38,706 bases of DNA from Aquificales bacterium. Its GTDB lineage: Bacteria > Aquificota > Aquificia > Aquificales > QOAS01. Under the pieces are notes generated by a model. That model was not told the origin of the DNA. It was given only the letters and a program-made list of their open reading frames with translations, and did not search any database. Position 1 is the first letter of the stretch. The number at the start of each line of letters is the position of its first letter. The stretch is from NCBI GenBank assembly GCA_027036735.1, contig JALWDU010000046.1:1-38706 (forward strand). Direction: 5' to 3'. The translations under genes and the position numbers were made by a program. Below are positions 22,232 through 22,710 of the stretch, in pieces.

Positions 22232-22260
22232 TTGACTTTTAACCCTCTTTATGGTATTTA
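22232..22260 (+). promoter_or_regulatory. Candidate promoter reading toward structured element and CRISPR array
   Basis: TTGACT-N17-TATTTA; predicted start ~22266. Confidence 0.45.
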
Positions 22261-22264
22261 TCAA

Positions 22265-22406
22265 AATTGAGTATTGGGTTCGGCTCCTTGGCAACTGAAT
22301 ATTGTCAAGATTTACCAAACCCGCATGGGAGTAGAGTTATCGTTCCCCTCCTACTGCGATGCGGGTTTGAGGTATGTATATACCTATTTGTGGGGTTTTT
22401 CAATTC
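22265..22406 (+). ncRNA. Putative structured RNA / CRISPR leader transcript with three consecutive hairpins
   Basis: AATTGA (22265-22270) complementary to TCAATT near 22401; hairpin CTTGGCAA-CTGAATA-TTGTCAAG (22287-22309); hairpin AAACCCGCAT...ATGCGGGTTT (22317-22368, inner AGTAG/CTACT); hairpin GGTAT-GTAT-ATACC (22371-22384). Confidence 0.4.
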
Positions 22407-22442
22407 TAAAAGTTAGATGTGATGCGACCCTCAAAGCCAAGG

Positions 22443-22710
22443 GTTGCAGTAATGCCCGCTAAATGCGGGATTGCGACCACACGGGGTGGGTTTCCCTTAC
22501 TACCTTTACCTCTATTCCCAGTTGCAGTAATGCCTGCTAAATGCGGGATTGCGACTGATGTAGTATTTTCAGTAATGCATACTTTCTTTTGCATTCCCGT
22601 TGCAGTAATGCCCGCTAAACGCGGGATTGCGACGTGGTAATAACCTCAAAATCCACTAACTCCCCTTGGGGGTTTGTTGCAATAATGCCCGCTAAATGCG
22701 GGATTAAAAC
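22443..22710 (+). CRISPR. CRISPR-like mini-array: four 35-nt repeats, three spacers (43, 43, 42 nt)
   Basis: Repeats at 22443-22477, 22521-22555, 22599-22633, 22676-22710; consensus GTTGCAGTAATGCCCGCTAAATGCGGGATTGCGAC with CCCGC-TAAAT-GCGGG hairpin; last repeat diverged (GTTGCAATAA...GGGATTAAAAC). Confidence 0.88.

Follow-up and report, generated by a model that had tools for sequence, protein, structure and literature searches.

Binding of NusB and S10 to boxA RNA initiates the assembly of an antitermination complex, which blocks Rho. The structure of the Aquifex NusB-NusE pair has been solved with boxA RNA (PDB 3R2C), and boxA elements located in front of CRISPR arrays, the transcription of which is protected by antitermination, are already known in other bacteria, as summarized in two papers (PMC7862264; PMC12691694) that cite Stringer et al. 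2020. Here we describe the region upstream of a CRISPR array in an Aquificales bacterium; the whole stretch of DNA that was analysed, 38,706 nucleotides in length, is referred to as the window. Positions 22232-22442 very probably represent a CRISPR leader whose boxA brings Nus-factor antitermination, protecting the noncoding array from Rho. The features discussed below are the following.

22232..22260, + strand: leader promoter, with the -35 hexamer TTGACT at 22232-22237, a 17-nt spacer and the -10 hexamer TATTTA at 22255-22260
22265-22270 and 22400-22405: AATTGA and TCAATT, the proposed enclosing stem
22282..22301, + strand: rRNA-type antitermination signal boxA, GGCTCCTTGGCAACTGAATA, core 22283-22293, with exact matches 5' of 16S in G003 and G004
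22287..22309, + strand: hairpin 1, CTTGGCAA/TTGTCAAG, 7-nt loop, with boxA as the 5' arm
22316..22369, + strand: hairpin 2, CAAACCCGCAT/ATGCGGGTTTG, inner AGTAG/CTACT, a long stem between boxA and the array, kept in 20 leaders
22371..22384, + strand: hairpin 3, GGTAT/ATACC, confined to the closest relatives of the window
22386..22400, + strand: conserved leader block ATTTGTGGGGTTTTT, near-invariant across 15 leaders, with recognisable versions in G004 and G006
22443..22710, + strand: CRISPR array of four repeats, GTTGCAGTAATGCCCGCTAAATGCGGGATTGCGAC, at 22443, 22521, 22599 and 22676, with three spacers

The leader and its copies in the genus

An earlier, sequence-only reading of this region proposed a promoter-linked RNA with three hairpins enclosed in one stem, possibly an ncRNA that reads into the array. 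The promoter-like site TTGACT-N17-TATTTA and the inverted repeats of hairpins 1, 2 and 3, as well as AATTGA/TCAATT, are all present where that reading placed them. A plain sigma-70 scan did not call the promoter site; its hexamers are kept as TTGAC-N17-TATWTA in the 15 aligned leaders. No intrinsic terminator was detected by a terminator scan between the structured segment and the array. The fourth repeat of the array (22676) is degenerate, which places the leader side on the left.

Homologous blocks were searched for at the DNA level in the window's own genome and in 40 relatives. Copies with 95-97% identity were identified in the own genome and in G003, and copies with 73-82% identity in G005 and at ten places in G002. 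The block is found, at constant length, directly 5' of CRISPR arrays with the same repeat in four species of the genus, and its copies directly precede repeats of this type wherever the contig reaches far enough. The 15 full leader copies align without a single gap across 222 columns and display a fixed order of elements, namely TTGAC-N17-TATWTA, boxA, hairpin 1, hairpin 2, ATTTGTGGGGTTTTT and, at a constant distance, the first repeat, with boxA located between the promoter and the first repeat on the same strand as the array. Judging from this sequence context, 22232-22442 is the transcribed leader of the array itself, not an additional ncRNA gene in front of an ordinary leader. Thus, the earlier claim stands in that a structured RNA segment, linked to a promoter and with at least one conserved hairpin, reads into the array, whereas the separate ncRNA gene falls, given that sister arrays are preceded by a block of the same length. 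At three loci, genes adjacent to sister arrays with this class of repeat were sampled and are not cas genes, and the only Cas1 of the genome adjoins arrays of another repeat type. The most informative element of the leader, an rRNA-type boxA serving as the 5' arm of hairpin 1, was missed by the sequence-only reading.

The boxA signal in rRNA and CRISPR leaders

The 21-mer at 22281-22301 has exact copies just 5' of the 16S rRNA in two congeners, G003 and G004, that is, the boxA of the window matches the boxA of the rRNA operons in these genomes; another exact copy is found in a CRISPR leader of a different family (G039). The rRNA leader of the window's own genome was not found in its 110-contig assembly. 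The own genome contains 13 perfect sites of a looser motif, GGNTCNTTGGNAACTNAA, all of them directly before CRISPR arrays (one, in C56, before a single repeat only), with 0 sites for the backwards control; the four sites with one mismatch are not CRISPR arrays. These boxA-preceded arrays represent three unrelated families of repeats: the one present in the window, the GGGATTGAAAC type, the arrays of which adjoin type I-B cas genes, and the AGTGGAATTGAAAC type. The distance from boxA to the array in unrelated leader classes ranges from 38 to 240 nt.

Across the order, GGCTCCTTGGCAACTGAATA with at most one mismatch was detected in 24 of 112 genomes, and the backwards control yielded zero matches. 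The contexts were read for the matches whose downstream stretches were retrieved, sites near contig ends being left unclassified. Where about 200 nt or more is available downstream of such a match, what follows is 16S rRNA (14 contexts), 23S rRNA (G037:1722427) or CRISPR repeats, the latter of at least five unrelated families in the readable contexts; four of the CRISPR cases (L017, L072, L086 and L104) contain only a single or degenerate repeat. The Aquifex-like chromosome G041 (1,551,335 bases) carries 16 boxA sites, which comprise 14 CRISPR loci, one of them with a single degenerate repeat, and two 16S leaders, of which the second was assigned because its 90-nt context is identical. The 19-base core of boxA occurs in 30 stretches among 84,980 genomes, 29 of the 30 in Aquificota; the remaining match sits in a coding gene and is due to chance. 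Where the context is readable, boxA appears to be confined to rRNA and CRISPR loci across the order.

Under the antitermination mechanism, RNA polymerase would start near 22266 and transcribe boxA at 22282-22301; NusB and NusE (S10) would bind the boxA RNA and load the ribosomal antitermination complex of the host; and Rho would then be unable to stop the polymerase along the long untranslated repeat-spacer RNA. What the sequences show is the identity of the leader, the correspondence of its boxA to the rRNA boxA of the lineage, the limitation of boxA to rRNA and CRISPR loci, the conservation of hairpin 2, and the presence of NusB and Rho, both of which are encoded in the own genome; the start of transcription, Nus binding and antitermination itself are inferred. 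Three observations weigh against this reading: boxA in the genus is enclosed in a predicted hairpin, and its binding could be impeded by this at low temperature; with its three spacers the array is short and has little need of antitermination; and the Aquificales boxA departs from the E. coli consensus GYTCTTTAANA at 3 of the 11 core positions.

Several additional features of NusB and of boxA-like sequences were observed. The NusB of this genome (G000:C66:11527-12462; L140:1025-1963, - strand) contains a helical insertion of roughly 160 residues, at about residues 34-196; the NusB frames span 309-322 aa in all seven congeners, whereas those of the 54 genomes searched elsewhere in the order span 134-202 aa. 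The AlphaFold model of the genus NusB (pLDDT 90) is all helical, and only its NusB part matches known structures, the best matches being Aquifex NusB-NusE-RNA complexes. In genomes of family f2 (e.g., L043, L073 and L100), a short G+C hairpin resembling boxB (e.g., AGGGCTACAAAGCCC, GCGGGACGCAAGGGCCCGCC) directly precedes boxA in rRNA and CRISPR leaders alike. The GTTCCTAAT-type array leaders (L046, L100, L101 and L106, and the Aquifex-like L073-L082) have in common the block GGAAATTAACnTTCnTTTC, which is separated from the first repeat by about 50-100 nt. Elsewhere in the own genome, a boxA-like sequence, GGCTCCTTGGCCACTCAA (L193:157-174; G000:C17:35956), is found about 60 nt upstream of an ORF of the RAMP family (PF03787); it is absent from the congeners searched and may be a chance occurrence. 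A repeated element (L194:160-400 and L196; G000:C17 near 43569 and C94 near 60491) measures about 230 nt, contains strong inverted repeats, begins with the boxA-like GGTTCTTTGG(A/G)AACAC and has no match in Rfam.

Structure of the leader RNA

The segment 22266-22405 folds more stably than its shuffled versions (-46.5 kcal/mol, z = -3.0, 1 of 200 shuffles equally good), and the segment from the end of boxA to the array yields z = -5.0, with 0 of 150 shuffles equally good. The z-scores of the homologous leaders of the genus reach only -0.2 to -3.4, so the extreme value is peculiar to the window's own lineage. A scan of the leader region against Rfam returned zero matches at gathering and lax thresholds, with no score above any gathering threshold.

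The model of three hairpins within one stem is only partly borne out by comparison. Hairpins 1 and 2 are kept across the 15 ungapped leaders; hairpin 3 and the outer stem are not conserved, the AATTGA/TCAATT pairing being broken in most of these leaders and the place of hairpin 3 in other relatives being taken by CGATATATATAAC or similar sequences. The stem of hairpin 1 is near-invariant, and its conservation says little because there is barely any variation in the 15 leaders; it is largely lost in G004, and in G006 a different pairing spans the same place. In hairpin 2, the inner stem is swapped for GTTCTAAA/TTTAGAAC in G005:C116, GCAT/ATGC is replaced with GCTTC/GAAGC in G004, and GCATGGCTCTA faces TTAGAGCCATGC in G006. 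Over 20 leaders including the diverged ones of G004 and G006, 10 pairs of hairpin 2 are changed on both sides, compared with 4.4 in shuffles (0 of 500 as high), although the rows are related and the alignment had been fitted to the model; in the 15 close leaders alone, the paired-change signal is no higher than in shuffles. From these alignments, hairpin 2 appears better supported than hairpin 1 as a conserved structure, and it can be considered an additional conserved element of this leader class, with spacing, stability, processing and spacer integration as candidate roles.

A covariance-model search of 112 genomes for homologues of hairpins 1 and 2 retrieved only the genus itself below E = 0.1. 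The GATTGCGAC-type leader of G039, from another family, contains a 15-bp perfect hairpin after boxA (z -3.8); other GATTGCGAC-type leaders fold no better than shuffles, so we claim no order-wide structure.

The overlap of boxA with hairpin 1 raises the possibility of a conditional switch, in which the hairpin hides boxA and antitermination is controlled by temperature or by a hairpin-opening factor. The predicted stability of hairpin 1 is compatible with such a switch (-6.2 kcal/mol at 37 C and marginal stability at 70 C, with the stem open at about 80 C, where hairpin 2 is still predicted to be closed), as are the location of boxA in its 5' arm in 15 of the 15 close leaders, the near-invariance of the 3' arm, which lies outside boxA, and the alternative pairing that covers the same place in G006. 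However, the stem is largely lost in the G004 leaders and absent from rRNA and other CRISPR leaders, and invariance among close paralogues yields no covariation, so that we consider this switch unlikely. A more elaborate, genus-specific version of conditional CRISPR antitermination, with hairpin 1 masking boxA, hairpin 2 taking part and, possibly, the involvement of NusB with its insertion of about 160 residues, is distinctly unlikely.

CRISPR leaders generally direct spacer integration, and the strict conservation of leader length, along with the invariant blocks near the array, would fit a leader that matters only as DNA, a recognition site for integration, with the RNA folds as by-products. 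This interpretation explains neither the exact rRNA boxA that unrelated leader classes have in common at distances of 38 to 240 nt from the array, nor the paired changes in hairpin 2, and we regard it, as an exclusive explanation, as very unlikely; a role in integration can coexist with antitermination.

Highly improbable is a separate functional ncRNA that acts in trans and reads into the array only incidentally: the low folding energy and the retention of hairpin 2 with paired changes would be expected of such a molecule, but every readable copy in the genus lies directly 5' of a CRISPR repeat, there is neither an Rfam match nor a terminator ahead of the array, and two of the four proposed helices are not conserved. 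We reject the separate gene because every readable copy is a leader. A tracrRNA-like anti-repeat, with the 5' arm of hairpin 2 (CAAACCCGCAT) pairing with ATGCGGGATTG of the repeat over 11 nt with one mismatch, is extremely improbable and was rejected, this complementarity being at the chance level (equalled by 33 of 1000 shuffles and 23 of 631 window tiles).

Relationship to described leaders

If the array is indeed protected by Nus-factor antitermination, as we believe, rRNA-type antitermination of CRISPR arrays extends to a deep-branching thermophilic order. The partition in Aquificales is clean: the motif marks rRNA operons and CRISPR arrays, across unrelated repeat families, and almost nothing else, and boxA is thus usable as a practical marker of CRISPR leaders and their orientation in these genomes. 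From this pattern, the transcription of long untranslated RNA would seem generally to require a means of passing Rho, which CRISPR arrays obtain by borrowing the ribosomal signal. No report of boxA CRISPR leaders in Aquificota was found in the literature searched, which covered Stringer et al. 2020 through the papers that cite it.

Compared with the antitermination region of rRNA leaders (boxB-boxA-boxC), the leaders described here contain an exact 20-21 nt match to the boxA of the congeners' 16S leaders, but the CRISPR leaders of the genus lack a boxB-like hairpin before boxA, and what lies downstream is a CRISPR array, not rRNA. As is the case with ordinary multi-array CRISPR leaders, one leader precedes many small arrays per genome, for example, in ten places in G002; here, however, unrelated leader classes of one genome have the short boxA motif in common. 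The closest resemblance is to the CRISPR leaders of Stringer et al. 2020, which contain boxA and undergo Nus-factor antitermination, as far as these are presented in PMC7862264 and PMC12691694: there as here, an rRNA-type boxA is located between the promoter and the first repeat. Compared with that account, the present leader has the Aquificales version of boxA, GCTCCTTGGCA, a hairpin that overlaps boxA, and a long conserved hairpin between boxA and the array. The boxA leader is, then, of a known kind in a new lineage, and one leader class additionally has a hairpin after boxA.
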